Assembly: GCA_964030785.1 (NCBI GenBank)
Contig: OZ034967.1
Span: 57,019,665-57,083,664, forward strand
Direction: 5' to 3'
DNA: 64,000 nt
Source: Siderastrea siderea
Lineage: Eukaryota; Cnidaria; Anthozoa; Scleractinia; Rhizangiidae
The notes under the pieces are model-generated. The model saw only the letters and a program-made list of their open reading frames with translations. It did no database searches and had not been told where the DNA came from. The position numbers were made by a program, and so were the translations under genes. Below, piece after piece: positions 9,859 through 63,486 of this stretch; position 1 is the stretch's first letter; each line of letters begins with the position of its first letter.

Positions 9859-9880
9859 GATTTTCTGATTCTTTGTTTGA

Positions 9881-9900: not shown

Positions 9901-10045
9901 TTATTTACCGGCCGGGAGGTCCGTATAGGGAAAAACTGTACCCGTGGTCTTGAGTACGGCCCGAGGCCGCAGGCCGAGTACCGTACTCAAGACCGAGGGC
10001 GCAGTTTTTTCCTATACGGACCGACCTAGGCCGGTAAATAACATA
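9895..10045. repeat. Long palindrome with GAGGCCGCAGGCCGAG centre
   Basis: The left arm starts 'gttatttaccggcc' and the right arm ends 'ggccggtaaataac'. Inner parts pair as well ('ggtccgtatagggaaaaact' with 'agttttttcctatacggacc', 'gtcttgagtacgg' with 'ccgtactcaagac'). Arms are about 65 bases with a short loop. It adjoins a TIR-bounded body that follows (10045-11117). Confidence 0.85.
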
Positions 10046-22709: not shown

Positions 22710-22990
22710 ACGGGATTCATGCGTCTTTGAAATTCGCTGTAGGGATCTGTAGGGAGTGGGGTTTAATTTCCGGTCTCGCTGTGAAAATCTAATTAGGAAT
22801 CAATTAACATGATCAATCTGTCATGACCAGTGTACTTTGCTCATCGCAATGAATAAGCCCTTCACAGCACGAAGAAGAGACGCAAAACAGACTACATGAA
22901 CTTATATCAGCTAAAGCAATAGTTAATATATGATAGAATGTACTTTATTGTGCGATCGCGCGAATATTCAAATCCTTCAAAGGCACGAAC

Positions 22991-28900: not shown

Positions 28901-31900
28901 TAAACTAAACTGATCTGTACTAAGCTAAACTCCCTGACTTTGAAATATGTGATAAATGCTGTTCCTGAAACATGTCATTATTTTGGGTTTTTTAAGATCT
29001 GAAGAAGTTCCTGGAATGTGAAAAGGAAGTGTTGTCCAAGGAACTGGAAGAGCTTGAGCAAAAATATCTTACCTGTGAGCGAAATTCTGAACCTTCAGCT
29101 CAACCAGCAACAAAGAGGGGTAGGAAGAGGAAGTCTGATCAGGCATTTGAGAAAAAGGCTGAATCATCTTCAGCAATGGCAGAGCTTGCAGCCTCTCTTC
29201 AGATCTCTCATTTCCACAAGGTTTGTGAGCTTGCACAAAAGTATTTAGTAATTAGGCTTATATTTAGATTGGTGTTTTACTGTAAAGTTGGTAAAATTGT
29301 ACTTTTAATTATAATTATATCCTTTCATGCAGCACCAGTTGGAAGTTCTGTTGCAAGATTTAAGAACTCTCCTGTGTTTCATTTTGCAATGTATATAACC
29401 ACTAGAACCTCAAACTCAGTTAACTCCAACTAGTTGTACTTCCCTTTGGCTTAATATTTAGTTAATTTTAACCCAATAACTAAAAGTTGAATTGAAATTT
29501 TCTCAATCTCTTTCTTAGTTGTAATTTATAATATTATACTGTTATATGTATCAGAGCTGTACATATACAAACACGCTGAATGCATTTGTTTTTATCTGGT
29601 TATAATGTAGTGCTTCAAAGGATGGAATGAAATTGCCAAAGTCAAGTCAGGGGCAGTGAGTTTGAGGACAGCAGAGATGAACAGATTGACATTTTTGATG
29701 TCAAGGTATTAATTTTTAAAATGCCTTTGATGAGCACTTAATTTTGGGAATATTTAGAGGTAGCATTAATGCCAATAACAAACTATTATAACTATTATTA
29801 AAATTATATTGTTATTCTGGTTTCACTGTACCGTAATAATAATATAATATTATTATCCAACTGTATTTATTTAGCATGTACAGAAAACGCACGAAACGCT
29901 ACGAGTACAAATATCCCACGATTGTACAGTTGCATGGTGTTGTGGTTTTGATTCACGAAGAAAGAATAGCGATGGCACAATAATACGTGTTTATTTATAT
30001 CCGAGCGTGCGGAGAGTGAAGCACTCTCTGCGCATGCGCGTACAAGAAGTGTATTACATAACAAACTATGACATCCTCCTCTTTCTGAACAAGCACAGCG
30101 AGTGATGCCTAGAAAATGGAACCTAACGTAACATGTTGAAATATGCCATGTCCATTGTTCAATAAACGTCAGAAAATGTCTTTCACTAACGCTAGTAGCT
30201 GCAACAGTAACTCAGTTAATAAAATGAATTTAACAACATCAGCTAAATCAGTTTAATCAGAGTTTCAGTTCATAAGTTCAGCCTGTCGGGCGGTTTGATC
30301 GCCCTGGAAGATCGGCGGAGGGTAGCCTCTCTGTCCATACCCCCTGCTACAGTTTGAGGGCAGGTTGTTAGGGATGTAAGTGGAGAATCCTCGTTTAAAC
30401 TCGGTGTGGGCTCTGCGGTATCCATGTCGCTGCTTTCGTGGAAGGTGATGTTTTCTCCTGTAGGGCGAATGTGGCTGCGGTTACGTCTGTGGGTGCTACC
30501 ATCTGCCATGTCAACGACGTATGAGCGGGGAGTCTCCGCGTGACACTTGACAATGCCAGGTTCCCATTTGTGGCTATGCGGGTTGAGGACACGCACTGGG
30601 TCATCAGGACGAATCACGGGGAGGTGCTTGGACGTTTTGTCATACTGTGACTTTTGTTTCTCTTGTCTTGTTTGAAGCTTTGCATTGATATCACCATCAG
30701 CAGACAGGGATAGGCTTGGTTTAGAGATTGCCAGTAAGTTGGTTTGGTACACTCTTGAGTTCAAGAGCTCTGCTGGTGATGGAATATTGTGGTCAAGAGG
30801 GGTGCTACGCAGACACAACATGGCGAGGTGAGGATCAGAACCAGATTCTTTGCATTTCTGTAGGAGGCCTTTCACTGTTTGCACAGTTCTCTCAATGAAG
30901 CCGTTGGCCTGTGAAAAGTAGGGGCTGGTCGTGACATGTACGAAGCCATATGCATTGCTGAACTTTTGGAACAACGTAGAGGTAAACTGAGTGTCATTGC
31001 CAGTGATGAGTTTGCTTGGGATGCCGTGCTCCTCAAATATGGATTTCAAGTGGGCGATTGTCGTGTCCGATCGGATATCGTTCAGCTTCCTCACCAGAGG
31101 GAATTTGCTGTAGTAGTCAGACACTAGTAAGTAGGGTGAGATGTTCCAGAAGAACAGGTCAGATCCTAGTGTGTGCCATGGCTTCTGAGGAACATCGTGG
31201 GGCATGAGGGGCTCCTTTACATTCATGTTCTGATTGTGTTGGCAGGGGGCACAGCGCTTGACCATCTCTTCAATGTCGTGATTTATGTTGGCCCAGAATA
31301 CTGATCCTTTGGCACGGAGTTTGCATTTTTCTGCGCCTTGGTGTGCATAGTGTAACTGTTGCAACACATCAGCGTGCAGACTTTTAGGGACAAGGATTCG
31401 TGTGCCCTTTAGGATAATGCCATCAGCGACAGTTAATTCATCGCGGTAATTCCAATACGCATGTAGGTGTGGTGGACATTCTGATCTTGTATCAGGCCAG
31501 CCTTGTGTGATGACTGCGCGTAGTGAGAGAAGAACTTCATCCTTAGCTGTTTCCTCTTTAATTTGGTTGATCCTTGTTGGGGTAGCATTTAGGTGGAGAT
31601 GTAATTCATGGACTGACACGTCCAGCCCGTCGATGGTGTCGCCTGGGCATGGGCTGACTCGAGACAACGCGTCGGCTACTGGAATGTCCTTTCCTGGGAC
31701 ATACTTTATTTCCACATCATATTTCTGGATCCTAAGCATCATTCTCGCGATGCGCGGTGGGGCAGATGAGATGTGTTTCTTGAAGATCGATTCTAATGGC
31801 TTGTGGTCTGTTTCCACAGTTACATGTCGGCCATAAGCAAAGTAGTGAAATTTCTCCAGGCCATGTACGACAGCGAGCATTTCTCTTTCAATGTTAGAAT

Positions 31901-34852
31901 AGCGAGCTTCTGTCTCAGTGAGAAGTTTGCTTCTATACTCGATAGGACCTTGATCCTGAAAGAGCGTTGCACCGAGGCCACGTGTGGAGGCGTCTACTTG
32001 GATGGTGACTGGCTTTGTGCTGTCAAAGTATTTAAGTGAATTGGCAGATGTGACTGCTTGCTTGACTTTGTCTACGGCCAACTGGTGTTCTGGGCCCCAC
32101 TGGAACTCGCTGTCCTTCTTGGTCAGGTCCCAGAGGCAGGCTGATAAGGATGCTAGTTGCAGTACGAATCGGCTGAGAAATTGCACCATACCGAGAAAGG
32201 TTTGGAGGTCAGCCAGGCTCGGTGAAGGATCCATGTTGGTGATCGCTTCAATCTTCTGTGGGTCTGGTTTAAGGCCGCTGGCGCTGATGATATTGCCGAA
32301 GAAGGGTATTTCAGTACACCTTATCTTGCATTTGTCAGCATTAAAGCGAAGGCCGGTTTCACGTGCACGCTCCATGACAGCTCTCAGATTTGCATCATGG
32401 TCACTGAGGTCACGGCTGTAGATAACTATATCGTCAGCGATACCAGTGACACCGGGGAGGTCACCAAATGCTTCGTCTACTTTCTTCTGGAAGATGTCCT
32501 GGGCGCAGATTAGGCCGAAGGGAAGCCTCAAGAATCGGTATCTGCCGTGTGGTGAATTAAAAGTGGTGCACAGTGAACTTTCATAGTCAAGTTTGATATT
32601 CCAGTATCCACCGCGGGCATCCACAATAGAGAAGTATCTTGCGCCACTCAACTTTGGTAGGATATCTTCCAGTGTTGGAGTGCGGTGGTGTGGCCGTTTG
32701 ATGGCACGATTGAGGTCTTTGGGGTCGAGACACAGTCGGAGTGTGCCATTGCTCTTGGTAACACAGACCAACGAGTTAACCCAGTCAGTAGGTTCATCTA
32801 CTTTGGTTATGATACCTTGCTGCACCAGTGCTTCTAGCTCCTTTTTGAGTGGCTCACGCAGTGCTTCAGGTACTCGCCGTGGGGGGTGAATGACTGGTGG
32901 GACTGCGGGGTCCAAGGTAATATGAAACTCTCCTTTGAAACAGCCGATGCCCTCAAAGCAGTCCTGATACTGGCAAAGACGCTCCTCCTTTGCCTCTGTG
33001 CTGCCGAGGGGGTCCTGTTTAGCAGTGGTCAGACTGTAGTTAAGAGTGACGAGTCTCAAATCCCGGCAGGTGGGTAGCCCCAGGATCGTCGGTCCGGTCG
33101 TGTTCACGACGTGGAATGGATACGGTTTGGAGTGACCGCCATGTGATAAGCAAAGCTCGCAAGTGCCATAGTGCTGTATAATATGACCACCAAAGGCTGT
33201 GATGGTTGTGTCCGAAGAGGCCAGACCTAAGGGTGCACCATCTGGGCTGCATGCAGACTGGGGATGCAGCTGTTTGTATGTGTTTACAGGAATGACGTTT
33301 CCTTCAGCTCCCGTGTCGATCTTGCACAGTACAGGCATCGTGCTTTGACCCACATCCACTCCTATCTGTATCAGGGCTTGAGTGTCTGTTGCCGAGACGC
33401 TGCCTATGTACAGGGAGTGGAAGTACAGCTGTGGGGTGTCTTGCATGTGCGAAGTGCTGCTCGGTACTGTTGGGAATTCGTTGTCAGGGTCAGTGGTGTC
33501 TAGAGCGTGTATTCCCTGTTGCTGCTTGTGTTGGATGTCCTTGGGTTGCACTTGGCCAGCTCTTGTTCTTGGGTGGGAACGACAAACAGACTTCCAGTGG
33601 CCAAGCTTGCCACAGCTTTCACACCTTGTCCCATATGCTGGACATGATCTTCTTGGTGGGTTGTGGAATGTGCCACAGTTGCCGCATTTGGCGTCTTGGG
33701 TTCCCTTTGCTGGTAGAGTGTTCGTGTTGGGATCCCTGTGCCTTGGGTTTCGGGCATGTTGTTTCAGGGCATCAATCGTGGTAGTTTGGCTACCTCTGAT
33801 GTCTTGTAATTGGTTGCTGGTTGCCTCTTGTGTCCGTGCTATGCTTACAGCTTTGTTGAGAGTCAGGGTGGAGTCGTATTCAAGAAGCTTTGACTGGACG
33901 CGCGGGTTGTTGGACCCGAAAATCAGGGCATCAATAATGTGTTCGTCAGGATTCGTGTACTTGCATTCAGTTACGAGGATACGGACTTTTTTTAGGAATG
34001 AATCTACGGATTCACCAGGTTCCTGTTTTAGGGTGCGGAGTTTGTAGCGTGCTAGTCTGAAGTTGCTTCGCGGCGCCACGTACTCTTCGAACTTTTCCCA
34101 ATATGTGCTAAGTTTCTTCTTGTCGTCAGCTGTTAGCGTCCACGTGGAGACCAGCTCGATGCCTTCTTCACCGGACCAAATCAGAAGGTAACTCACTTGC
34201 TCTTCCTCGCTTTTATCCTTTAGCGGACCGGAGAAGTATAGCTGGCATAGGTTTTTGAATTTTTTGAGCGCTTGCGGCGCGTCGGTCGAAGACCAATCCA
34301 TGCGTGGAGTTGGCAGCCCGGCGAGTTCCGCCATCTTGTCTTCCTGTGGTGTAGAAAATCTGGTGTTTCAACGGGTTGAACGAGGACAAAAAAAAAACCG
34401 ACCTGGTTTCGGAGTTCGCTTGAGTGAAAGCACTAACAGTATAATCCCGCTCCTGGCACCATGTTGTGGTTTTGATTCACGAAGAAAGAATAGCGATGGC
34501 ACAATAATACGTGTTTATTTATATCCGAGCGTGCCGAGAGTGAAGCACTCTCTGCGCATGCGCGTACAAGAAGTGTATTACATAACAAACTATGACACAT
34601 GGTTATTGTGTAGGACCATGCCCCTGCACATCCTGTTACACTTGTAGTTTTCTTTCAAGTTACTGAAAAAGAATAAAAAAGGTTAAATTGGATTAAAATA
34701 ATCCCTTTTGTAGATGTTTTGGTTGAAGTACATATCACCGTCTGTTTTTACTCATTATTTGTATTTTGACTTGCCTTGAGGGTTCGTCAAAACACAGCAC
34801 GACTTGTAAAAATGTATGGCGATACTTCACACCAAAACATCTAATAAGATAT

Positions 34853-45496: not shown

Positions 45497-46552
45497 TTAT
45501 TTGAGATTGCTCTGTATTGACTCCTTAAGTTTAAGAAATTTGTCTTCCAACCCGCGTTCTATTTCATTCAGATCATTCGTGTGTTGTTTTGAATCTTCCT
45601 TAATTTCTGTGAACCGTTTGAAAGCAGAATCAAACCCATTGTTTAAAATAAGGTGGCAACTATCTATTAACTCCTTCAGTGCTTTATAACTAGCTATGCC
45701 ATGCCCTTGGGAATGCAATTCGCGATTAACGCGAATGGGCAAGTATTCAAAATTTCTGCACTGCAAAACAGGTAGCTGTTTCAATCTCATTGACCAGTCA
45801 CGTGATATTATATTTTCAATTATTTCAGTAAATTCACAATTAATGCTTGTTTTGAGTCTCTCTGATTCATGACCTGATTTATCTATCTCGCTGTGAATTT
45901 CCTGCAATTTTTTATCCAGTGCTGAGAGTTTTTCTTGCAGGTTTGCTTCCAGTTCTTTCAATGACCGCTCGACTTGTTCCTTCTCCCTTGTCAAATAGCT
46001 GCGAATAAATCTTGCGTGGTCACTAAACCTTTCCTGGATGTTTCCTATTAGTCTCTCTTGACTTTGAGTGTGCCCTTGAAACTCTTTTGTAATGTGCTGA
46101 AGTGCTTTAAACAACACAGTGAATTTTTCATCTGTCATCCTTTCTAGTTCTTTCGTTTTTTCTTTTATTTCCTTAATGAGCTCAAGGCTTGTTAGTTTTT
46201 CCTTTGTGTCTATTTTACAGAGATTAAGCAAGTCCAGACATGCAACAGGGTCCATCATGTTACTAGCCAGCAACGTTCTGCTGTCTTCGGTAAATCCCTC
46301 CATTTCCCTTTCAAATCTTTCGAATTGTAACAGAATATCATCAACAAGGTGATATAATTTTCCATTGCTCTCCTTGATCTTTCCTTGTACATCTCCAATG
46401 GAATTGTCTGCTCGATGGAAGGCTGACCGGAACTTGTTTCCTATCTCTTCTAAGGTCTTCAATATCGAGTCAAGTTCTTCGCCAACAAGTTGATCATCAT
46501 CTTGAATGTCATGCTTCTTCAAGCCTTGCTCAGGTTCTCGATATGAACACAT
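45497..46552 (-). other. TRP last exon: 351-residue coiled-coil tail
   Basis: One long exon (acceptor 'tttactag'), rich in Glu, Lys and Leu with heptad-like spacing, e.g. 'EKEQVERSLKELEANLQEKL' and 'DLNEIERGLEDKFLKLKESI'. Several breaks ('CLDLLNLCK', 'LKQLPVLQCRNFEYLP') suggest separate helical segments. It probably serves for assembly of subunits. No further domain recognised. Confidence 0.8.
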
Positions 46553-47502
46553 CTAGTAAATATACAGAGAGTTGTCAACTCATGGTAGTCATTTACATTT
46601 GTAACCTGTTCTTTATCATGCAGAAAACTGTTTTTGATCCTGTCTCAGTGCAATGAACTGTTAATTTATCAGGAAAGCGCAAAACCTGAGGCTTTTTGTC
46701 CATGCACTTGTGGCAAAAGAGTCATAAACGTAGTCATATCGATGAGAAACGAATCTAGATCTTGACTACCTTGTTTCAATTTCCTATTGGTTCATTGTGG
46801 TATTAGTGGCTAATTATGCATTCTCTTCGCAAATAACTGCTTATCTGCTCCACAAGCAGTGCAAAATGACTGGCTGCACAAGAAGTCCGACTTTTTCGTC
46901 ATTTGGACTGCTTGCTTTCATCCAGGCCGCTTGTACACCCTATCTCTTGAAATGGCGTAGATAAAATAATTAAAATCGGTTTGACTAAGCTCTTTTTTCG
47001 GTAGAATTATTGTTCTTGTTCTTTTCATGTTTGCATACACGCCTCAGGGCGCATCTGCCAAAAAGAAATTTTAAAATTAGCCAAAATTTATTCATATGGA
47101 TCCGACGCCTTTTGTGTAGTCAATAAAAACTGACTAATATTTGTTTTACACTAACCTTGGCCAACACTCGCATTCCAGCATGTCCTATTCCTATGTAGGG
47201 GTACAGAGATTTCTCATTTGGGACGTACTCTATCGTTATTTCGTCCTGGACGATCTGCCTTCCGTTTAAAGAAAACACGATTGGAACCTTGCCATCTTTT
47301 GCAGAATCAAACTTGACTGTACAACCAATTAAGTCCCCTCTATAAGCCATGGCGTCTACAAAAATATATTCATTGGAAGTTAAAATCGTTGAAAAGTTTT
47401 GATGATAAGCATCCCGTTGCGCGGCTCTTGCATCTACTTGCAGCTCCTATTGGGTCTTTTCTTGTCTCAAGATTCTCCAAGTCCGTTGTGTGCATAATAA
47501 TG

Positions 47503-47582
<80 letters not shown>

Positions 47583-50500
47583 TGAGCACTTCCCGTGAGG
47601 GGCTTTTCAGGACAATGAAAGAAATAATTTAAATGAACATAACAGCTTTAAGGACCCAAACTGACGGGGAGGCAGACCTGTTGGCTATTTACAAGCGTAG
47701 CCGAGGAGTTGAACTCGGGGTTACCGAGAACAACTCCAGCAAGTGCTTAGAGCGGGACTTGGACCCAGGACCTCCGGATTTTAAGTGCGACGCCCTATAG
47801 CTAACCACTCGGCCACGCTGGCTCCCTAATACAACTTTCAAGCGCATAGTTTGCCACATGATTTGCTTCACTCTGGTTATATATCTTGTTTTGTAATACA
47901 AGAGAAAGATTCTTGCCTTCGTATTCCACTCCATTTTTAGAGTTGGCTGCATCGAATATTCTGCCATCATCAATGTGATATCCCACAGTTCCGCAGAGCC
48001 ATCCCGGCAAGGCGTGATTTCCATAATCCTTTCCAACAACACCCACTCCTAGAATTCGCCTCTCTCCTGTTTCTTGAATCAGGACCTGTTTGAGGGGAAG
48101 AAAAAACTATACTTATAGTCTCGAAATAGATTTCATAAAACTGAATTTGCTTTTAGCTTGGTAAAGTGTTGGAGAATCTTTTCAAAGCTATCGATAGTTT
48201 AAAAAATAGATTATTGTCTGGAGATAGAGCTCATGGTGCATGGAAATACTTCGGCGACTGGCTACATGGACTGGTCATCATTGATCATCATTGCAGTTAT
48301 AGTCAATACAATTCAAGCCTAGCGAAAGCATAAGGAGATACTTATTCCCTTTTGAGGCCCAACACTCACCGACACAATCTGTCCACTCGGCACACAATCC
48401 TGATACTATATACACGGCTGTAATTGGGAGTCAGGAATGACGCAATGTGAGAGCATTCATCTCTCTCTTAAATTTGAACAACAGACTTTTGGCCTTTATT
48501 CGATGTTTTTCGGTGCTCTATGGTTTTCACCCGCTAAAATAAGTTCTTTTTGAATAAAGGAAACTAAAGTGTGGCTGAAATGCTGCCATCGAGTGGCGGG
48601 GGCTTTCTAGTTATAAGTTAATGCTACTACCATGTGGCACTAATTTTTTTTGCGATTTTGCGGTACGCCATTAAGCAAGGCATCTGTATTCCGCATTTAT
48701 GGATGGGTCTTGATTCATATAGTTGTATTGCGATTGCATGTACTCAAATAAAAACGAAAATGTTATAATTCCAGATGACCGCAACGTCCTGAAAATTCAA
48801 AAATTAATCGCAAAAATTGGTTCTCGCAAAACAAACAAATTCGCCTATCCGCAAAATTCAACTCCCGCAGTACACTGAAAAGAAACCCTCTTATGGGGTA
48901 TAAACATGTAACCGAGATGAAACCATTACATGCGTACCTCAAAATGAGGGTTTTCTGGAGAGAAAGGGAACCGATATCTTGCACCATGGTATTCTGCTGG
49001 GTCGTCTTTGCATGTCGAGCAATACTTGCTTCCTTCACAAGTCAAAAGACACCCTTGTACTCTTATCCCTTGACTCTGCCAGGCCTGAAAAAAGTTAGGT
49101 CAACAATGGTTTAATCGAAACTTCATCAGTAATGTAGGCTTAAATTTAGAATGGTTATTACTTATTTGCTGCCGGGAAACGATGCCTTATTTGCCTTAAT
49201 AAGCAGACGTGGAATTTTCATGGTTGAACCTTGGTTTGGTTGAAAAATGGAGAACAATTAAAGTATGCACCGAAACATTTACGAAAATCAATAACATAGA
49301 ACTTTTTAAGAGGGACCTATACAGATGTGCAAAAATTTTCCCGAAATAACTTTGGTAGTTTCGTCAAACAGGCTTGAAAACGTAACACGAAGACAGAGAC
49401 CTTTGCCTCTCTACGAGCAGGTGTACAAGTGACAAAATTATCCTAGTTGCTACTTGCAACAGAAACTGAGTGCGACTTTAATTACCTTTGGACCTGTGGG
49501 AAAGATGCCTTCTTCAAAGCCTCGTGCTGTAAATGTTCGGTGAGCAATTTGATTCGCCATTTGCCGGTTTCTCTCAGTTTCTTGGAGAACGTGGTCCATT
49601 TTTCTTTCATCTGATTGGCGAAAACAAAGTTGGTGAGTTTATACACCAACAGTTTCAAAGTAGAGAGTATAGACATTATTTGGTAAAGGGGGCGTTGAGC
49701 AACTAAACTCTTGCAGATTGAAGTATATCGTACCGTCGTGATTTTCACTATGCTACCTGTAGGACAATCGTTACTACAATTTAAGACAAATATTACAAAT
49801 TAGGACAACTTTTATTACAATTCAAACAACTGCTACACATCACGACGTCATTACAATTTACGATAGCCCATCAGTAAAGCCTGGAGACTATAAGTACCTT
49901 TATTTTTCCATTGGCTGAAAAATATATTCAAGTGAAAGATCGTCTAAATGTTGATATTTAGTTTCCAATATTGATATTTAATTTCCAAAGGTCTCAAAGT
50001 GTTTGGAAGTAAAAGGAGGTAGTAGCAGTCTGTTTTATGGATTTCACTGGTGAGCCACAAAACTGATATCTGTATGAACTGAAAACTCTCAAGCTTAGTT
50101 GATGGGCTGCTTATCAAAAGGTAAGATATTATTCAAATAGTAAAGCTTTTACTTATCGATGTAAAGTAACCATTTCAACTACTCTTACGATATTTCTTTG
50201 ATATGAAGACTACAAAATTTTTATGATTATCTTGCCCAAAATTCACGATCCCTTACAACGTCAACTGAATTATGCAAGGGCCTTTTATTTTACTACAGTG
50301 GTCTGCCCTTTGGAATAAGTTCTGGAATACGTTCTGGCTTAGGGTAGAGACGAGAGCTGAGAATCAAACTGGATATCAACGAACAGATAGCGAAAAGAGA
50401 TAGTGTTGATATTTTGGGTCCCGTTACGATTCTGGGGGGAGCTAAAGAAACTACTGCAAAATAGTTAGAGGATTAAGGATGAAATAAATACTGTGGACAT

Positions 50501-53500
50501 TTGTTTCAACACTATTCCCACCTGTGAGAGGAAATGAGTATCCGTAGGTTGAAAAGTACGAAAGTTGAAGGTTCTCCACAACAGCGTCTAGAGATTTGTC
50601 CTGGTTGGATAATAAATAACACCAATTACGAACCTTTTCCAATCCGTCAGACATGGACGTTACAGTGAGTCTGCCTTCCTGACAACAAGCAACCAATGTA
50701 AGCCAACGCACTGAATACCAAAATTATCGCCCAAATTTTCTCCAGTAGACGTTAGTAGAGGTAGCATTGTGACAAACAAACACTTGCAGTTAACAATGAA
50801 ATTTTATCGACTTACATGACCCTCGCTTCGCCAAGTGTTGTTCCTTGGTTGTCCTTTGCAGCCTCTTTTGCACATTCGCCAAAACCATCGTATGAACAAG
50901 AATAAATGTGATACCAGGTTAAGAGGTACTGGGATTGGATGATATGTGCTGTATGTCTGGATTGTGATGGCTTTCTTGTACGACCATTCTTTCAGAGAGT
51001 TATCCTCAGGAAAAAACGAAGATAAAAACAGCACATGTTATCTCCGACTTCATTGTTTTCATACTACAGCATTCCAGACTACTAAAACTGCTACAGTGGC
51101 GGAAGGTCTAATATTACCGCAACGTAAATTCCATTGAACTGAGGAAAAGTAAGAAGAGTAATCTAATCCATGTGAAGTGGTGCTAACTCGAGGTGGATAG
51201 TTCTAGTTTTCTCTCTTTAAACTGCAGTAAATGTGTACTAAACCATTTGCAGTAACACGACAAAGTGTATTTCAAGTGATGACGTGCCTAGCTTTTGAAT
51301 AGATGCTTTGTATGAATTACTAAATCATTTAAACACAATTTTGGGCCAAAACCGAAAACAGATTAAACCTTACATGATAACTTAACCATCGTTTGGACTC
51401 TAGATAGAAAAGAAGTATGCAGTTGAAATGTTTTTTTTTGCGGACAAAGGAAAATCGGTATGCCTGCGACAGAAAACAAAAAGGGGAAAAAGCACAAAGC
51501 ATTATAAAAGTATCTCAAATGACTCATAGCACCTGACGAGAATAGAAACCATGTCGCATTGCATTTTGTTGGAGGCAAGTTTTCTTACCATTTGCCATCT
51601 ACGCTCTCTCTAGCTAAATGATGTGTTACCTCAACTCTTTGGTACGTGTTTGACAGGAGGGCTATCATCATGTTAACAAGCAGAATGACCCCCATTATAA
51701 GAAAGACTCCAAAAAGAAAACGTGCGAGGGTCACTGAAGCGCTGTCCACTGAGTCCAGAGGATCCAACTCTGCTATTCCCAGCAGAGACCACGTGAGATG
51801 CTTTACCATGCTCCACCAACTGTGCGAACAAAAATAACAACAAGAACACCTGTACATATTGTGATATAAATTTGGTTTGGGTTCATTTTCTATTTTGGTC
51901 TTAAACTGATCATAAATCTGGAACAAAAAAAAAGAGAACGTAAAACAGATTAAGGCTGAACCATTTTTAAGATTGAACCAGGCGGAGTTTGGCAGGAGGG
52001 TTTGCTAGAAGTAAAGTTTGACTTACCAAGCCAATCCGCCAGACGTCTTGCAAGCTCTGTAATGAAAATATACGATACAGCAAGTAAAAAATATCGAGTA
52101 TTCTGTTCAGAGCTGCTTTGTATTTAACAAAGGACCTTGCGAGCCACAGCACTGCACAGAACAGCCGTCCACGTGTTTTTAACTGACGCAAGTGATAATA
52201 AACGTTTCCCGAATCTTAGTAGCGCAGTTATTATTTCGTTTTTGAATCATATCCATTTACCAGTATTCAATATACCAATATACCAATATTCTTACTTTGC
52301 CTCAGTGGAAAGCCCTAAAGATTTTACAAAAAAACCATTATTTTGTCCAACACGTATGGCAGTTAAGGACAAGTAAAATGTTTCGGTTTGTTATTTTTCG
52401 GCCTTCCTTACACTCTTAACTTCCCTCGTTAATTTTTGGTAGTGCTACATCTGGATCTTCAATTTTCACTTTCACATTTCCTAGTCGTTCGTGGAGATAC
52501 TCTTTGTGGGCCCTAAAAAGCGTCTGTTTCCTCAATGGAATGTAAATCTTTGTTCAGAAAATTGGTCGTTTCTTTTATAACGGTCCGGTTAGAAATAGTT
52601 TGTAATGAAACTGTAGCCTACTTACGATTCTTTGCCACTGTTGCTGGAAATAAATGATCTTTCAGCCATGTAAACTTTCGTGATGGCGATCGAAAACGCC
52701 AAAATAGTGGCAATAAACTGCCAGAATATCGTAGCTACGTCGCCAGTGATGTGAAACAAAGCGATCTGAATGGCGCCTGGTATTGAGGCCGTACAGGTAA
52801 CCGCATATAACCAGCGCTCTATTGTCGGTAACTGATTCAGACAGGGCCCAGGTGATTATTCTCAGAAGAAAAGACACTGCATAAATGAGTAGAGTGATAA
52901 AATCCAAAATGTTCCATCGGTCACTTAAATTAAAAAAAAAGGCATAAACAGTGATTTCAACTGAACGGTACAATTTGTAAAACTTGAGCCTGAGTAAAGC
53001 GGTGTTTAAAGGCCCCTCCCTCTCCTGTCTCTCTGATCCTTTTCTTCCCCTGCAGGCAACCGTGTGGTTAAAAAGATAATGAGTATTTACCATTTAAAGG
53101 AAATTTAAAAATTTTGGTTAGACTGTAAATGGCAAGGCTATTTTGGTTTGCCCGGCAGGAAAATTTCCAGAATAAACGTGACATAGAACGTCTTTACAGG
53201 TACTCCAAAATTCCCAACCGGAATATCCGAAGGGAAAATTGGTTCCATTTGCCTTTTTACTCCAGTAATCAAACTAGTTCTGTAAATTAGAGAGAGATGC
53301 ACAAATGGTACACGCCAATCTCGAATGGAATTTCCTATTCGGGAGGTTTTGCTTACCATTTGCACAAACCGTAGACCTACCGATTTCCCCAAGCAAATCG
53401 TAACCAACCACACTGTCTTCTTGTAAACACCCTTGCGCCGAACAATGCGCGAAAAATGTTAATGTATGCATGTTTAATGTATTCATGTCAGGGACATATT

Positions 53501-56500
53501 CTGTATAAACGAAACTGTCATTAGAATAAAATTAACATTCCTCGACATGCGAACGTTGAACAAACCTGTCACATTTTTTCATTTTTGGAACACCTATGGA
53601 GCAAATTATTGCACGTGGGCCGCATATTCGTTTTCTCAAACTTTTCACTTTTAACTTCAATCTTGATTCATTTTGTTTGATAGGTGTGAGCTGTCCCCCA
53701 CCTTTAGCTTTTCACAGAATTTGCATGACCTTTATATACAACAAGCCGATATTGATTATTGCTGGCTGAATAGAATGAATGAATTAAAAATGAGCGTCAT
53801 AGATCAGCAAAAATTACCCCCTAGTGATAACATAACAAACCAAGCAAACTACCTCAGATACTTATTACATATTTGCAGAAAAACTGCTGGGGTCTTCGGG
53901 CCCTTGATTTTGTCGTCTCCATTTTCATCGCAGATCTCGTACTTTGATCCTCTAAAACTCTTAGTTCCCAACCTTTTCTTTGGCTGTACTTTAATATTCA
54001 CAAACTGCCGACTTTTCATCAAAATTCTGCCCAGGAAGAAGACCAAAATGGCCCACTCCAGACTACTGAACGAAATGGTTGATGTCTCAAGACAAAGAGC
54101 AAAGTGCAAGCCAAGCAGGGCCAGGTAGCTAAGCGTGTCTCGCATAAACACAAAGTAAGGAGTGGTGAAGTATTCCAGGTAACTCACTATCAAAAAAAAC
54201 AAAAAAAACAAAGCAAAACAAACACACACACACACACACACAAAAAAAAAACAGCAAGAGATTGACGTATTAAATAACCACTTTTGTTACTACGGATACG
54301 TTTTGCCCATCTCGCGATAATCCGAGAAACGCGTGATTCTATTACTTGTACAAAGGCATTTTTGCACACTTTGTGACTATGTGGGAAAAGCAGATCTAAG
54401 CAAGTGCTGTTGGAATAATCGGGCTAACAATTAGAAAAAAATATCCTACAGTGTAAAAGTTCATTTTGGATGACGTCACAGGTCCCTCAATTTGCACTTC
54501 CTATTGTACAGCACATCATAAGCTGTCCATCAAAGGCGAAATCTTCTCGAAATATTGTAACCCCACAAAAACCCCGAGGGGGTAGGTGGTCCATCAATCC
54601 CCTTTGAACCACGGTGGGGGTATGAATTTGCTTGCACGTCCGAGCTTTAGTTATGCCCCTATACCCCTATATCCTATACTTACGGATACCTAATTGAAAA
54701 GACTCCCATAGGAGTCTGCAGTACTCACCCTGAATGAGGACAAGAACATGACCTTTTGACTAAAACTTGCTTCAAGGAAGTCATGTACATACCAAGCAAA
54801 TCTTTTCCTTCTAGCTCTGTAAAAAAAGTAAACATTACAGGTCATCGCTCTCTGAGCAAAATAATACTCATTGACAACAACGGTTACAATACCGAACCTA
54901 ACAACAACAACAACAACAACAACAACCGCAAAAACAACCCACTGCACGCAATATGAACTTCCGTACATTCTTATAGGTGTGACGCGTCAAATGAAAAAAT
55001 CTTTCTTAGGCGTTTAACTGCTTCTATGTATTGTTATGGAGACAAAACTTAAAAAAATTGATCGATTTTACTTTCTTAGTACTACTGTTACAGGCCATTT
55101 CCGAATCACCCTCAAATTGTCTCTACTTCAAAGCAAGGCTTGGTGCAAAGTTACCTGATATGAGATTCAAGTTAACACAATTGGTTTTCCACCAAACCTG
55201 ACTTTGATAAAGAGGCTTACGGCAACCCCAGAAATGGCCATTGCAGCCTACCATGCCAAATTGTCTTCCCGGCGACACTTCTCGGATCTGCATATTCTCC
55301 AAAGTGCATGATCTCATGTCCATCATTGTTGATTCTCTCCAGTTCCCGGATGTTGATGTGGGGACCAATACCTACTGGCACTAGTTTAATTCCCATTTCC
55401 TTGATTTTGTTAACTTGGTCTTTACCAAGTTCTTTGTCTTGCCTTAGACATATTTTGTGGTCTGTGAATAGCACCAGCACCTGAAAGTGATTAAAATTAA
55501 AATGTCTAGCTGGGATTTTATGTTTTATTCAGTTTGTTCATGGACCTGAACAAAAAAATGTCTTTTTCACGCGTTTCCTCTACAAAATGCCGTTCCCCGG
55601 AATCGGCTCTCATATTTATTTTTAACGAAAGAAGAAAGAAAGCATTCCTTCCGATTAATTTTTAGAAATTTTTAAACACCTTTATTAATTTCCATTGTAT
55701 TCTAGCGGGTACGTTTTTGGTCTCAAACAGTAAAAGATAAAAGGGGCAATCAATTCAAAGCGACCAGCAAGAAATGTGTTGGCTCAAAACATTTACCCAC
55801 TTTAAGGGAAAGATTTGTAATTTATGAAACTATATTATTATTGAGTGCCAGTAAGGCTGTAATTCAGTAGCCGAGAACTTTTGAAAAAAAGAAGCAAGTA
55901 ATTGTGCAGTAGGGAGTGGTTAAAGTCATACAATTTCAATCGCTTTCTTGCTGTTTCGGTTAGAATCTAAAGCACAATAATTGTTGGATTCCATTTATTC
56001 TTTTGTCTTGCTAAATTTACATGTACTAAAACAAGAAATCTAATTAATAGACATGATCCACCAATCTTGGAAACCAACCTTCTCTGAGTTTGGTCGATTA
56101 GCACTCAGCTTGAACGCTTCACTTATTGTCTCCAGATCTTCATGAAGGGCTGGAATATTAACCTCAGCATTCCTCGTGAGCTGATCCACGCTATCTGAGA
56201 GGGCATTAAAGTTGGAGAAGTCTTTAGCGAAGCAAATCTTCCCCGAAGATGAATAGTCTCCATGAATTAAGATCTGGTACTTGACTTGTTGGTCTTTATG
56301 CTTGCACATCACGTACTTAATGGATTCTTTCATCAGACTGAAGGCTTCTTTCGCGGACGCCGACGTTGCATTGAGAGCAAAGGCGAGATCTTTCTCTGCA
56401 AAAAGGACCGAAAATTTATAAAAAAAATTTGTACCGTGCAGCGACATTGCTCATGATAGTTTCTAAGAAAAGCTGAAGGTTTTTTGAGAAAAAGGTTTTT

Positions 56501-59500
56501 AAAAAAAGTCGCGATTTTCATTAACTGTTCACTAGTCTGTTCGCATATGTTGTTCACAAATCCACCAAAGGTTATTTGTGAACCAATCTATCTTCTTTAA
56601 AAAAACAACATCAAGTAAAAAAGTGGAATACGATACCTTTGTTTACGTGGGTGACGTTGTTAATACGATGCTTGATATAAAACACGGCGAAAAGGACCGG
56701 AAACAACACAAGATCAAACAGACACCACAAGTTGAGGAAGAACCATATCCAGCTTTGTAGATCTAACCAAGAGTATTTCTTCATTTCACCAAATTTACCC
56801 CACCACTTTTTCTTCATCAGGTTGTACAGTACCGGGTGAGCAAACAACTGCAAAATATATAAAACTCCGTTTCAACAATAAAGGCTACTAAAATAAAAAA
56901 CTGTGACGTCATGCTAGTCACGTGACGCTTTTAGCATGTGCTTGTTGTGTTGAATTAAACATGGCGTTGTTGTTGTTGTTATAAGACTGTTTGTCGTCTT
57001 ATTTCTCGCCTTGTTTACGCTCTCCAGGGGCGTTCCTGCCTTTACGCGAAATACGCAACTGCGTACCAGAATTTTCGTTAATAAATTTAACGGTTTATAG
57101 TACAGAAGAAATAGAAAATTCGTATAGAGGAAGTGATAAGGTAAGGTTGTGCAATTTCGATACTGACAGTTTCTTCATTACTGCTGCGGAAGGATGCGCC
57201 TGGGCGTATTGTATTATCTCTTCCAGTCCAAGAATCCATTTATAGCGCGACTTATTGGCTGTGGTCGCACTCAATGTTAGTTCAGTGTCTATCAAGCAGT
57301 TTTTATACTGATCAAGCATTTCTATCAATATCATGTCTATCAAGCATTTCTGCACTTTGCACCACAAGACACGTCTTGTTTAACACAGTTACATTATCCA
57401 ATATGCAGGAATGAGGAGGTCACGTGAGATAGCAAGCATGTGATATCCGAGCTCAGTCTTGAAAGCAGTTTGGTGTGGCTTTGATGGTACAGGAAAAGAG
57501 GTCACTATGAAGAGCGTGAGGGCCCAAGAGAAGGGTGGGATGTGACCTCCTCATTCCTGCAAATGCCACGGTAGAATTTCAATCAAACTTCAACTTACAG
57601 GTAAGTCTCGTTTAATTTTCCAATTCTACCTCGCATTTGCATACAGTCGGAGGTCACGTGAGATTTCAAAGCTCAAAGCCACAGCAAATGAACAGGCGTA
57701 ATAACTGTAACACCATGGCATGTATTTAATGATATTCCTTTCATGACATGTACCATTAACAAATGCTAATGTAAACACAACGAAACAGAATATGATATGG
57801 TACATCTACCAAAGCATGCAAAGCTGCAAACACAGAAAATTACTGGCTACTGCTAGTAAGGATAGCCTTTGCGAAATTACTTTCATTTGTGATAGGGCGA
57901 TCATAAAATTTTGCAAAGGTGGAGTCTGAGCGCCACACAGCAGTGTTCATAATCTCATGAATAGGTGGTACATTTGCAGCTTTAGCAGCTGACGTTGCTG
58001 CACCCCTAGTGCTATGGGGTTTGAACACTGAAGTATCGATTCCTGCGTCCTTCATAGTTTGTCTAATCCATCTAGATATTGTGTCCTTAGAGGCAGGTCC
58101 ATGAGGTACTACATAGCAAATCAGCAGCTGCTTTGTGCTTTTTCTAAGAGAGGCTGTCCTTTCAATATAGGCTCTCAAAAGTTCAACAACACAAAGTCTT
58201 TTACCCACATTATAACTAGTAAAGGTGATAGGGAATAAGTGTCTGTTCTGGCCACCTTTTGCACTGGTTCAAGAGAGAGGAGATATGGAATATATACTTT
58301 CCAGGCGATGCACTCATTTCCTCCAGAGATAACGTTTGGAGAGTCTGGGTTCTCTGTGCTGAGAGGAGTGCCATAAGCATGACTAGTTTCTGAGTGAGTT
58401 GCTTAAGTGACAAGTTTCCAGTGGTTAGATAGGTTTTTAAATGGTTGAGCACAATCTGTGGATTCCAAGTTTCAGTATAGCGAGGTAGAGCTGGTTTTTG
58501 ATTGAATAAACCAGACATAAACCGTGACACTAGTGGGTGATCACCCACTTAATTACGCCATCTGTTTTGATGAAGGTTGACAAGGCACTCCGAGCAGTTG
58601 CAACCGCACTATATCCAACTGTTTTTGATTGAAATGACAGGAACTCCAGAACTTGTTGCAAGGTTGGGTTCATTGGACTGATAGAATTGTCACTACTAAA
58701 CTTAACCCAGGCTGAAACATATGTCTGATATTGCTTATGGGTCCCTGATCGCCATGATTCCAAGATGGTGTTCAAAGGCTCCCCTGTTACGCCTTGATTA
58801 ATTAACGATGACTGGACACAAGACATCCATGAAGCTGAAGTTTGGGGAACAGAGGGTGAATTTCCTCTGGTTGATGAGGCAATGTTAGAGTCTTCTTGTG
58901 CATCTTGATTTTTACCGGTGGAGATTTCATTAACTGATGCAGGCGTGGATACCAGAACTGCGTTGGCCAATGAGGGGAAACTAAGATGGCTGTTGTTTTG
59001 CCCTCTTGTATAAACTGAAGGACTTTGCCGATGAGACTAAACGGAGGGAAACAATAGATAAGGTTATAGTGGGACCAATCTATAGTAAAGGCATCAATGG
59101 CTACTGCCCCTGGATCTGGTCTCCAGGCTATATAGTGGGGTATCTTGTGGTTTAGCCTTGATGCAAACATCAACATCAGGCTCACCCAACTTTGATTTCA
59201 ATTCATTAAATGCAGTTTGGTCTAGCGACCATTCAGTGTTACTATTGTGGAATTCACGGCTAGCCTTATCTGCTTCTGTGTTTAGTTTCCCTGGTAAGTG
59301 GGAAATTGATAGTGTTAGCTCTGGATCTATGCACCACATAAAAATTTCCCTGGTGATGTCATTGCAAATGCAAGATTTTGTACCGCCCATATTACGAATG
59401 TATGAAACAGCAGTAGTATTGTCACAAAGGATTTTTATGTGGCGATTTTGCATATGGTTGCAGAGGGCCTTCCAGGCTAGAAGGATGGCCTTCAATTCCA

Positions 59501-62500
59501 AAAGGTTAATATGTAGTTGGGATTCTTGATGTGACCATCTGCCACGCGCCACACATGATGTACCCTCAATCACCCCTCCCCAGCCTTTAAGAGAGCTGTC
59601 AGTCATGAGAGTTAAATCTGAGGGTTTAGGCGTGATGGCTTTGGGAAGTTGATCAACATTGGTGATCCACCATGAAAGGTCCTGTTTTGCTAGGGGGGAG
59701 AGTGTCATTTTCCCCTCCAAGTCCCATCCATTGTTTTTTAAGGCATACGTCTTGTCATTTTCTAGAGACCTATAGAACAGGGGTGCATACTGAACTCCTT
59801 CAAACGCTGAGACCATGAGGCCCACTACAGAGGCCACATCTCGAATTGGAGTGGGTCCTTCCAGCTGTGCTAGATTGTGACACTTGGATTTGATAATGGC
59901 TGCTTTTTCAGGGATCATAGAAATGATCATGTCCTTAGAGTTCAGTAAGAATCCCAGGAATTTGGCAACCTGGGTTGGTGTTGTGACACACTTTGATTCG
60001 TGAATTGTAAATCCCAGTGATCTAAGCAAAGCAATTGTTTCAGCCACAACTTGCGCTAATTCATGGGGTGTTGTTGCTAGCAAAAGGATGTCATCTATGT
60101 AGCCTACTGTAAGATATCCTTTTGACCTCAATGTAGCCTATACTGGCTTCATGAGCTTTGTAAATACTCTAGGGGCCGATGCAAGGCCATTAGGTAAACA
60201 GGTGAACTCATAAAGAGATTCTTTAAATTCAAATCTGAGAAATTTCCTGTGCTGGGGGTTTATGGGCACAGAATAATAAGCATCCTTGAGATCTAAAACT
60301 GCCATCCAATAGTCTTTTTTAAGTAGCTGTACTGCTGACTGGAGAGACTCCATTTTAAAATGGTGATATGTGACATACTCATTCAATTTTTTAAGATTTA
60401 GGATGAGTCGATGAGACCCATCTTTCTTGGGCCGGGTAAAAACTGTGGATATGAATTCAGATTCACAATGTGTAGTTTTGTTAATTACTCCCTTCTCTAG
60501 GAGTTTATTTATCTCTCCAGCAATGATGAGATCATCGCCTTTAGAAAAGGTAATGTGTGGCACAGCTGACTGACATGGTATGCTTTCAAATTCAATGAAA
60601 TAGCCTGAAACAATCTCAAGGATGCTTGAGTCTGTGGTAATAGACCTCCAGTTAGAGATGTGTTTAGCTATATTACCAGCACCAAAATTTGAAACAGCAT
60701 TTACCGTGTTAGCTTCGTGGACTACTGAGATGACCTCTTGTTGTTTGTGTTGGACTTCTGGGAATCCTTGTGTCGCCAGGGTCTGAAGATTTGGCCCTTC
60801 GAGTTTTTTGACTGGTTTCTTTGGGAAAAAGATCCCTTGGAGTTATTGTTGTTGACATAGCCAATTTGGGGCCAGTGGGGTCCTCTATGACCTTGCACTT
60901 TGGCTCCAATTTTATTCACATCTCCTATGTCCTTCAACTGTTTTTGGAGGTCATCACCAAACAGCCAGTCAGTGAACGGCACATGAGGAGAACAGAGAGA
61001 GGCATAATCCCTGCCAATATCAGGTTTCATGAGTTGCTTTCGCTGCATGTTAAGTTCATAGTTAACATGCGTCAGCAACGATAGAGCGTCGAGTCCAAAC
61101 TGTTTCATCTGTTGAACCCCTTCCTGGTCTAGGCCTTTCTTCTCTGTCATGGACAGATCAGTCAAACGAGCGATTGGGATTATGCCTTTAACGAGAGCTT
61201 GCTGGATTTTGAACAGCTGCAAATCCCTCTTCTGCGTGGGCTCATGGAGCTTACGCCACAGCAGATGCCTGGATTTACCCAGTATCGCAATTTTCCGGTC
61301 TAGCTTGACGCTCAAGCTTTTCTTTCAGCAATTTATCTGGCAAACGGTTGCGGAACATCTTGTTAAGTAGTTTGGCAAGCTGTGGGCTGTGAATATTTTG
61401 GCCAGGCAGGTCTTCAGACTCGTACTCCTTCTCCAAGTCCGCTAGAATTTCGTCTTCCTCTGGCTCTTCAGCCTCAAGCTCGCCATCTTCACCCGCTACT
61501 TTATCCATGAGAGTCTGAATGTCTTCTTCGCTCTCTAAGGCATGTTGGTCGCTCGAGGAGCTCGAGCTGTCTTTGGCGGGTTTCTTGGCGGGAAGACCGC
61601 CTTTTCAGGTTTGTGAAGCCACGAATCCACTAATTTGTTCCCTTTGCTTTTTCACATTGACTGTAAAACTTATGCCTCTAAGTCAGTGTAGTCTTTATGT
61701 GCTTTAAAAACGTGATGATTTTGATACCGTAGTCTTTCACCCACCTCCATCGCCATAAGTAAGGCGTTGGTGTCGCATTTTGTTAGAGCTCGTGGTGTTA
61801 GCTTGTCAGCTATATCACCAGCATCACCTTCCTTTAAAGTCTTTCTTAGCGACTTTTCAAATGCTAAAGAAGAGAGAAAAATACAAAATGAGCCTCAAGA
61901 GATCCAGGCTGCGAAAAGGTTTGTCTAAATATTTAGTTAAGAAGGTTAGAGGAGCCGCACCTGCCGCACGGCGTTGGTACCTATACACAAAACTAACGTG
62001 CAAAAATAGTTAACTTAATCATTATCCTAGCGCTCTAACAACAATAAGCGTTTGCTGAAAGCTATAACTATACTCCGGTTAAAGGCTGTTGTAACTTTGC
62101 GAAGGTCACTGAGAGGTTTATGTCTTGCAGATTCGCGTATTGTGCATTTCAATTTTTACATTTTTCAGGCCCTTGACTTAATAAACGGAGTGGCGGATCT
62201 AGGTTTGAAGGTGGCTTGGCTAACTTGACAGAACGATAACGGAACAATAGGAGACAAAGTCGCCTCCTTGATAGTCTTGTTCCTTTTCATAATTTCAAGC
62301 ACGAATCCAAAGAGGGGGTGGCTAGCCACCCAATCCACCCCCCCCCCCATCTGCCTCTGAAATGTAAGTGGACTCAACATTTCCATTTAACACCGTCAAC
62401 ATTAGTGAATGTGGCAAGAGAAAAGCGTTCTGATGCCCCGTTGAATGATGTTGCACGATATTTAAACGAAGTTTGATTTCCATCAAGCATTTGTACAACA

Positions 62501-63486
62501 ACGTTGCGTTACATTCACCACCAATTGGTTGGTGTTTCATTAATCCGTGTGACTGAGGCTTAATGTACAGGCCCAAGATTTCTAAGTAGAATGCGGTTTG
62601 TGGCTCGTGCGCATGAGTGAGAGAAACACACTTCCATGCACATCCCACGATTCGCTTTGACGAAGGGCTAGCGCTTGAAACGTGAGTTTTCAATATAACT
62701 CCCTACGCCGTGGCTAACTGCCATATTAAATCAGTTGATTAATCCAAAGTTTCCTGAAAATTCACGCCTAATTACAGTTCACGCCGCTCTATGCGTGAGA
62801 CGTTGTAAGTTGTATTGCATTTCTATCGTATCTGAAACAACCGCTCCACGCGGGCTTTCTTGTTGCATAACTGTCTCTATTTACCTCAGTCTTGAACCGT
62901 TTTGTCGAGTTCCTCAATAATGTAAGAGCACTTTTCGATTAAGGTGATCTTATTCGTCTCATCTACCAACTTAATTTTAAAATCTCACAGAACCTAAAAA
63001 TTTAGCAATGCTTTAATTAACGTGACTCCTGAGCAGCCTCGAGACAATAGATATCTCACCGGACTCTCAGCTGGTAAATTTTCTGAATTTTTGGTTCTTG
63101 TTTTTTCAGTTTTCAGTTTGCTTGAAATCGTACTGGTGAAAGTTATACAAGAATGTTATTTGGGGAAAGAAATTCTATTAAATTCTTCTCTAATCTTACA
63201 ACATCAGTGGGTAAAACATTATGATTAATTTTGCTGTCCCTATTGTTCTTCTGTGTTCCTCAAAGCGTTAAGCTAAACAACACCTAAACGTTTCAGTAAA
63301 GGATTATTCTAATTACTCTCTGTGAACATAATGTCAATGAAGATGGAATGAATTATCACAAATCAACACAAAGACAACAACAATAACAGCAACAACAACC
63401 TACTGACCTATCCTTTCCAAACGGTCGTCCTCTTTGTTTTTCAGTCCACGGTCTTCCAACTCTATCTCCTCGCTTTGCTCCGCCAT
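45497..63486 (-). CDS. TRP-type cation channel with vWA and SPRY domains (17 exons)
   Basis: Exons 5' to 3': 63486-63408, 61863-61745, 57349-57164, 56847-56637, 56395-56079, 55480-55252, 54816-54729, 54182-53853, 52923-52626, 51819-51630, 51004-50816, 50678-50522, 49610-49486, 49084-48938, 48085-47917, 47355-47156, 46552-45497. All junctions keep phase; the only break is inside exon 9. Order (residues approximate): charged N-terminus (1-128) without ankyrin repeats; S1 (163-188); vWA-like domain (200-375); S2, S3, S4, S5 (415-610); pore helix, 'LLGIAEL' filter and S6 (620-675); TRP region 'KEWSYKKAITIQTY...HPIPVPLN' (680-715); Cys cluster (about 845-870); SPRY (885-1010); coiled-coil tail (1011-1361). 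S1-S6 resemble the TRPC/TRP side of the superfamily. Expected to be a plasma-membrane cation channel; ligand unknown. The start follows from a clean donor and phase. This copy may be a pseudogene. Confidence 0.82.
47156..49084 (-). other. Cys cluster and SPRY domain of the TRP protein
   Basis: Exon 14 carries 'CLLTCEGSKYCSTCKDD', then 'YRFPFSPENPHFE'. Exons 15 and 16 give a full SPRY domain: 'RRILGVGVVGKDY', 'LPGWLCGTVGYHIDDGRIF', 'YRGDLIGCTVKFD', 'VFSLNGRQI', 'LYPYIGIGHAGM'. SPRY domains are protein-binding modules, in channels best known from ryanodine receptors. This one is cytoplasmic, after S6. Confidence 0.88.
47496..47827 (-). mobile_element. tRNA-derived SINE with (TTA)n tail
   Basis: On the minus strand it starts near 47827. 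It has an A box TGGCCGAGTGG (47805-47815) and a B box GGTCCAAGTCC (47755-47765), then a tRNA-unrelated body and a long (TTA)n tail ending near 47496. It lies in intron 15 of the TRP gene, between the two SPRY exons, in sense orientation. The related tRNA is Leu- or Ser-like by its head. Confidence 0.88.
51630..51819 (-). other. TRP exon 10: pore helix, selectivity filter and S6
   Basis: Begins 'WWSMVKHLTWSLLGIAELD', then 'LARFLFGVFLIMGVILLVNM' and 'MIALLSNTYQRVE', followed after the splice by 'DNSLKEWSYKKAI'. The pore loop with Gly-Ile-Ala-Glu and the S6 end 'LVNMMIALLSNTY' are standard TRP features. The donor after RVE (gtaaca) was chosen because it restores the usual EW of the TRP region. 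Confidence 0.88.
52626..52923 (-). other. TRP exon 9 (S3-S5) with a frame break
   Basis: One frame gives S3 'DRWNILDFITLLIYAVSFLL' and the start of S4 'VICGYLYGLNT'; the next frame gives the S4-S5 end and S5 'GAIQIALFHITGDVATIFW'. Both flanking exons splice in phase with their own half. At about 52776-52782 the DNA runs directly from 'aatacc' to 'aggcgcc' with no intron, so a small deletion (3n+2 bases) has removed the end of S4 and part of the S4-S5 linker. Confidence 0.75.
53870..54500. other. Intronic repeats near exon 8
   Basis: A (CA)n microsatellite lies at 54221-54242, just upstream of exon 8 on the minus strand, next to an A/T-rich tract that serves as the polypyrimidine region of its acceptor. 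Confidence 0.6.
55252..56395 (-). other. vWA-like domain between S1 and S2 of the TRP protein
   Basis: Exons 5 and 6. The first strand and helix read 'KDLAFALNATSASAKEAF', where vWA domains usually have DxSxS of the metal site; here N replaces the first Asp and the Ser pair is altered. Later strands 'KYQILIHG', 'VLVLFTDH' (TD of the metal site kept) and 'GIKLVPVGIG' with the final helix 'IRELERINNDGHEIMHFGEY' are typical. Only about 12 residues separate S1 from the domain, so it should project outside the cell. Confidence 0.8.
57840..58970 (-). pseudogene. DIRS-like tyrosine recombinase
   Basis: Three frames: N-terminal domain (58970-58530, 'SWRSGTHKQYQTYVSAWVKF'), middle (58548-58216, first Arg in 'LSAQRTQTLQ') and catalytic end (58208-57840, His and Arg in 'PHSTRGAATS', then 'AVWRSDSTFAKFYDRPI' with the Tyr). 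All catalytic residues are readable; two frameshifts break the enzyme. Confidence 0.85.
58802..59185 (-). pseudogene. DIRS-like post-RNase H block
   Basis: 'MFASRLNHKIPHYIAWRPDPGAVAIDAF' region and 'AILVSPHWPTQFWYPRLHQL', the counterpart of 9449-9858. It overlaps the start of the recombinase frame, as in relatives. Confidence 0.65.
59094..60563 (-). pseudogene. DIRS-like reverse transcriptase and RNase H
   Basis: RT motifs: 'DGSHRLILNLKKLNEYV', 'MAVLDLKDAYYSVPI', 'FTCLPNGLASAPRVFTKLM', then a TAG, then the active site 'VGYIDDILLLA'. RNase H acidic residues lie in 'LMTDSSLKGWGG', 'INLLELKAILLAW', 'ILCDNTTAVSYI' and 'HLPGKLNTEADKASR'. Apart from the TAG the frame is open for almost 490 codons, which points to moderate age. 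Confidence 0.87.
60722..61607 (-). pseudogene. DIRS-like gag region
   Basis: Starts in a Ser-rich segment and an acidic segment ('LEAEEPEEDEILADLEKEYE'). It shifts frame near 61275 and continues with 'WRKLHEPTQKRDLQLFKIQQ' and 'CSPHVPFTDWLFGDDLQKQL', ending in a basic Asn/Ser/Lys tail. Typical for the first product of this group of elements. Confidence 0.72.
61864..62860. other. Intron 1 of the TRP gene, no gene seen
   Basis: Includes a C-run at 62335-62350. The plus-strand open frame at 61780-62013 is antisense to exon 2 and is not considered coding. Confidence 0.5.

Follow-up and report, generated by a model that had tools for sequence, protein, structure and literature searches.

Introduction

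TRP (transient receptor potential) subfamilies are told apart by the domains that accompany the pore. In TRPML and TRPP a folded domain is carried in the outside S1-S2 loop, while TRPC channels are recognized by an EWKFAR-type TRP box and an LPPPFN motif. A von Willebrand factor A (vWA) domain can act on a TRP channel from inside the cell and in trans, as in the copines, cytosolic proteins of C2-C2-vWA architecture; in one report, the vWA domain was the only one of the Copine-6 pieces tested that by itself raised TRPM3 current (PMC12317139). The accessible part of a 2024 review lists the TRP subtypes without a member bearing a vWA and a SPRY domain and mentions neither Willebrand nor SPRY (PMC11526382), and the main text of a 2026 study of TRPM evolution mentions none of vWA, Willebrand and SPRY (PMC13143021). 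We found no description of a coral TRP with either domain in the literature searched, subscription papers and preprints being outside its scope; within the same bounds, the suggestion that no named TRP subfamily combines the two holds.

Here we analyze a gene within a 64,000-nucleotide stretch of the Siderastrea siderea genome (contig OZ034967.1; hereafter the window), which a first-pass annotation had described as a TRP channel with an extracellular vWA domain in its S1-S2 loop, a cytoplasmic SPRY domain and a coiled-coil tail. We propose, with a probability of about 0.6, that it belongs to an anthozoan TRPC-like subfamily in which a cytosolic protein sensor would be wired into the gating elbow; the copy in the window itself carries two gaps.

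Results and discussion

One predicted gene joins linker helices, elbow, vWA, TRP channel and SPRY

Comparison with relatives yielded a splice model of a single minus-strand gene (63486-45497, about 18 kb with introns), in which 17 exons can be joined to encode, in order, linker helices, a hydrophobic elbow, a vWA domain, a TRP channel, a SPRY domain and a helical tail. Its features, all on the minus strand, are as follows; exons are numbered as in the family, and the evidence is given in brackets.

63408..63486, minus: exon 1, start codon and N-terminus (MAEQSEEIELEDRG...), resembling the start of relative P0001 (splice model)
61745..61863, minus: exon 2, first part of the linker-helix region, donor gtgggt (relatives, splice model)
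56848..61744, minus: intron as assembled, in which family exon 3 (a 64-residue linker) is absent (profile search with positive controls)
56637..56847, minus: exon 4, pre-S1 elbow (TRPC4 profile alignment, splice model, hydrophobicity)
56079..56395, minus: exon 5, first half of the vWA, phase 1 to 0 (Pfam VWA, splice model)
55252..55480, minus: exon 6, second half of the vWA, phase 0 to 1 (Pfam VWA, splice model)
54793..54816, minus: exon 7, a 24-nt linker with counterpart residues in P0030, a vWA-less paralogue (relatives)
53853..54186, minus: exon 8, S1 and S2 (tblastn of relatives, TRPC4 profile)
52626..52923, minus: exon 9, S3, start of S4, and S5, with an internal frame break (tblastn of relatives, splice model)
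52777..52779, minus: the frame break, frame A ending at 52779 and frame B starting at 52777 (tblastn of relatives, splice model)
52027..52056, minus: exon 10, 30 nt, between S5 and the pore helix (splice model)
51630..51819, minus: exon 11, pore helix and S6 (PDB match, relatives, splice model)
50816..51004, minus: exon 12, TRP box (EWSYKKA) and a proline-rich hydrophobic stretch (PDB match, TRPC4 profile)
50522..50600, minus: exon 13 (relatives, splice model)
49486..49610, minus: exon 14 (relatives, splice model)
48938..49084, minus: exon 15, Cys-containing start of the SPRY region (relatives, splice model)
47917..48085, minus: exon 16, SPRY, with a GC donor (gaag|gcaaga, at 47916) (Pfam, splice model)
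47156..47355, minus: exon 17, end of the SPRY (Pfam, splice model)
45497..46552, minus: exon 18, a 351-residue tail with a heptad stretch, and the stop codon (splice model, heptad score)

The splice sites are usable and the phases agree at the joins, provided that exon 9 is read in two frames around its break. The initial description of 17 exons with matching phases thus stands as regards the exons and their splice sites, but not as regards exon 9 or the linker exon of the family, which is missing. A first exon model, in which exon 2 had a GC donor, exon 6/7 was longer and exon 13 had an earlier acceptor, was dropped on comparison with relatives; the Pfam scores derive from that model, with an X at the break. 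They are 3.4e-10 for Ion_trans (residues 407-659), 3.5e-8 for VWA (residues 162-321, above the curated cut-off) and 2.9e-8 for SPRY, the last obtained with the C-terminal piece alone, where it is above the curated cut-off, and unlisted for the whole chain. In the tail, none of 200 shuffles scores as high as the heptad stretch on a simple measure of our own devising, in agreement with the coiled coil first proposed; the tail sequence shows hardly any conservation (9.5 bits with the best relative).

The plan is shared by stony corals and Nematostella

A protein search (7,995 candidates scored) returned 59 homologues, and the set grew to 75 with two more searches, each search scoring about 8,000 candidates that share most words with the query. 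An organism name is attached to 47 of the first 59, 45 of them from genera that we take to be stony corals and 2 from Nematostella; among the later additions are proteins of two sea anemones, Actinia, without a vWA, and Actinostola, a fragment. A leech and an oyster each contribute a TRPC protein with ankyrin repeats to the 75, and a divergent alignment used as query gave 7 hits, one of them the ankyrin-bearing leech TRPC. In the databases, family members are named 'uncharacterized', 'VWFA domain-containing' or 'short transient receptor potential channel 4/5-like'.

With blocks called at a 25-bit threshold by profiles derived from 45 aligned rows of this same family, all four (linker/elbow, vWA, channel, SPRY) are present in 32/75 homologues, none of them out of order, and these occur in stony corals and Nematostella. 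A vWA is found in 39/75; linker/elbow, channel and SPRY occur without it in 22/75, and the remaining 21/75 lack one or more blocks, many being fragments. The union of a TRP-type channel, a vWA and a SPRY in one product, as first read here from the window, is therefore indicated both by the Pfam matches and by the 32 homologues, which are the kind of cnidarian protein that the first-pass annotation had proposed to search for.

A merger of adjacent channel, vWA and SPRY genes into one model is very improbable. Merged models do occur in the set, as homologue P0059 carries retroelement domains, but the order is common to 32/75 homologues and the vWA cassette is in phase with the channel gene that surrounds it. 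Moreover, four whole-plan proteins of 1082-1115 residues (P0031, P0036, P0060 and P0061) are encoded on contigs no longer than 3,763, 3,540, 4,357 and 5,543 bases. These contigs, with 225 to 2,198 bases in addition to the coding sequence, are too short for introns of the size found in the window gene. Given the 18 kb that the latter occupies, we infer that these four are spliced transcripts. Transcripts ending between the domains had been named as evidence for separate genes; the four proteins answer that point for the family, not for the window copy.

Two further observations concern individual relatives. P0034, a vWA-less protein from Oculina, has EF-hand domains at its C-terminus according to Pfam. 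PF23317 appears in the precomputed Pfam column for 59/59 homologues and is unlisted in our Pfam scans of the window product and five relatives.

The vWA is predicted to precede S1 on the cytosolic side

The first-pass annotation read the order as S1, vWA, S2-S6. Our alignments place the first hydrophobic segment on the pre-S1 elbow of TRPC channels, with S1 coming after the vWA; as S4 has been lost from the window copy, the helix count still came to six in the earlier reading. Against human TRPC4 (5z96), the linker and elbow of the family profile align to residues 206-344 and everything from S3 onwards to 425-720, with the two helices in between matching 360-422 weakly (2.8 bits), so that the vWA falls in the alignment gap before S1. 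The vWA of intact relatives is followed by six channel helices, a pore helix and, after S6, the TRP box; the S1-S2 loop of the predicted Porites structure has just 8 residues (393-400). For TRPC3, the segment preceding S1 is described as lying along the intracellular face (PMC5967863). We therefore predict, from models and alignments, that the vWA lies between elbow and S1 on the cytosolic side.

It is unlikely that the vWA is extracellular or lumenal, with the elbow as the true first membrane helix and the vWA as an outside adhesion or ligand sensor, although several observations weigh in that direction and against a cytosolic domain. The elbow is strongly hydrophobic (17-residue peak 2.44) and is drawn as one helix in both structure models. 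N-x-S/T sequons number 68 against 33 expected, with 16/68 being one NAT at the old metal site, and the 18 residues after the vWA, an acidic stretch, are basic in only 3/33 of the full-length domains on which these counts are based (4/37 having been dropped as incomplete). The vWA proteins in one coral expression study were matrix proteins (PMC3204972). However, an S1 starting outside would invert the pore and the TRP box that follow the vWA in intact relatives, and the linker and elbow align to cytosolic and re-entrant parts of TRPC channels. In addition, lysine plus arginine exceed aspartate plus glutamate in the 25 residues before the vWA in 29/33 domains, and the number of vWA cysteines ranges from 0 to 6, which argues against a fixed disulfide. 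The cytosolic placement has a practical consequence, since tests for an outside ligand would target the wrong side of the membrane.

A TRPC-like channel, with likenesses to TRPM, TRPML and TRPP

The family has the S1-S6 ion-transport domain with a TRP box after S6 (Pfam Ion_trans, in the window product and five relatives; S4 is missing from the window copy itself), as well as the linker-helix domain and pre-S1 elbow that precede S1 in TRPC channels. The window motifs EWSYKKA and HPIPVPLNL align with the two TRPC boxes, the first differing from the EWKFAR-type box of TRPC4, TRPC5 and TRPC1. The family also differs from these three by the vWA cassette between elbow and S1 and by the C-terminal SPRY and tail. 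No Pfam ankyrin family was found at E up to 1 in the window product or 0.1 in the five relatives, and we have therefore filed the family as TRPC-like rather than TRPC.

There is also a likeness to TRPM. The best single-sequence PDB match, from S3 to the TRP helix, is Nematostella TRPM2 (6co7, 2.7e-18), TRPM7 is the first Foldseek hit, and the family profile aligns to TRPM7 in one stretch (profile 389 to 786, 4.9e-15). The profile nonetheless prefers TRPC4 over TRPM, and Pfam scans of the window product and five relatives list neither melastatin homology nor NUDT9H families. With TRPML and TRPP the family shares a folded domain inside the membrane-domain sequence, but here the inserted domain precedes S1. 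It differs from the copines in having the vWA in the channel chain, and no C2 domain appears in the Pfam scan. The vWA-less anthozoan TRP-SPRY paralogues have the same linker/elbow, channel and SPRY blocks. Altogether, a TRPC-like fold with vWA and SPRY folds, both on the cytosolic side, is predicted.

The vWA is an in-frame, fast-diverging cassette

Exons 5 and 6 together measure 546 nt (182 codons) and form a phase 1-1 two-exon cassette, which we take for the mark of an exon-shuffled module; if both were skipped, exon 4 would run on into exon 7 without a frame shift, and the product would be laid out like the vWA-less paralogues. Where both motifs were present (47/62 proteins), the spacing from elbow to S1 is 68-93 residues in 16 vWA-less proteins versus 212-281 in the other 31. 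We built a tree of 60 channel cores (59 of 62 proteins plus the window; the leech row, which was too short, P0003 and P0058 were left out, as were P0063-P0075) and rooted it on four vWA-less family members. The vWA label needs 4 changes on this tree, a number as low being reached in 0/500 shuffles, and at least 2 of the 4 are forced by starred branches; whether the vWA was gained once or repeatedly is not settled by it. In this tree the window groups as the sister of Porites evermanni (97/85).

Of five regions compared, the vWA shows the lowest identity in 288/300 pairs (of 378; the pairs are not independent). The MIDAS (metal ion-dependent adhesion site) motif consists of D-x-S-x-S and the metal-binding residues T and D. 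Its first position is Asp in 0/28 rows, 2 of the 28 being gapped, and the later Asp is D in 13 rows and N in 15. The metal site is thus degenerate and does not have the residues of a working MIDAS.

Two gene-model isoforms of one Oculina locus, P0001 and P0005, are strongly divergent in the vWA (34/55 and 39/59 in 60-column blocks) and differ little in the channel (up to 59/60), a pattern pointing to tandem copies or alternative vWA cassettes.

How binding could reach the pore

In the mechanism that we favor, partners inside the cell would bind the vWA or the SPRY, both protein-binding folds, and, the vWA being tethered to elbow and S1, such binding would move these two elements. In TRPC3, elbow and S1 line a lipid pocket together with the S4-S5 linker; the attachment of the vWA means that binding could act on this pocket and linker, the elbow and S1 being moved here by a protein partner, which would open or clamp the cation pore. 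The vWA would be the variable recognition part, because it diverges fastest among paralogues, and the helical tail may help assembly. A protein-binding fold at the elbow-S1 junction would thus adjoin the lipid site that is coupled to the S4-S5 linker in TRPC3, and its insertion would show a new input wired into the pore by exon shuffling.

A bolder proposal, which we consider speculative and rather doubtful, is that this undescribed anthozoan TRP subfamily unites a cytosolic recognition receptor with a pore, in which the vWA cassette, evolving fast and acquired at the gating elbow as a phase 1-1 exon module, and the SPRY would read intracellular proteins, for example of microbes or symbionts, binding leading directly to cation entry. 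With several members per coral species, the family is a concrete candidate for coral sensing.

The copy in the window may be damaged

Intact relatives used as tblastn queries recover the channel-region blocks of the window gene except two. One is the 64-residue linker block expected between exons 2 and 4; the other belongs to exon 9, where the 18 residues that follow LYGLNT in relatives, the heart of S4, are absent, the exon being 53 nt short and frame-shifted. A straight splice consequently stops after 524 residues, ahead of S5, the pore and the SPRY. Profiles of the missing linker and S4 blocks gave no match in any of the six frames of the window, with 4.6 and 5.4 bits at best; in the same search, four control profiles (18-66 residues long) recovered their own exons at 33-101 bits. 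Two other explanations were rejected: the open reading frame at 57087-57379 is not the missing linker exon, as the family block finds no match there, and a 25-nt micro-intron in exon 9 would be too short and would not account for the 18 additional residues of relatives.

The window locus may thus be a damaged copy, or its lesion may be an assembly error. We lean towards a decaying duplicate, a pseudogene disabled by loss of the linker exon and deletion within S4 and having no present function. The missing exon, the 53-nt gap with its frame break and a retroelement within the very intron that lacks the linker exon fit such decay, as does the presence of several family members per species, some with neighboring locus tags. 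On the other hand, the remaining exons are stop-free with usable splice sites, which would mean either that the loss is recent or that the gaps are assembly errors. That both gaps are such errors in an intact gene is conceivable, all other exons being clean, but we consider it less likely, given two separate gaps, one of them in a retroelement-bearing intron, and a window without a single N. The pseudogene reading concerns the window copy only and is compatible with a TRPC-like family bearing a cytosolic sensor.

The intron in question (56848-61744) has an RVT_1 match and a Phage_integrase match of 25.5 bits, just under the cut-off. Pieces of a tyrosine-recombinase retroelement lie within it at 57843-61324 (minus strand), with a stop near 60138 interrupting the reverse transcriptase. 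A 45-residue open frame (52416-52553, minus strand) that looks coding-like lies in the intron separating exon 9 from exon 10.

Other elements in the window

Outside the gene, a Gypsy-type retroelement occupies 30273-34367 on the minus strand as one 1365-residue open frame with reverse transcriptase, RNase H and integrase matches, its gag and rve matches being below the cut-offs. On the plus strand, 22937-23932 is a 332-residue open frame that has no Pfam match at E 0.01, and 8567-12377 contains open frames, the first with RNase H matches, which perhaps represent another retroelement.
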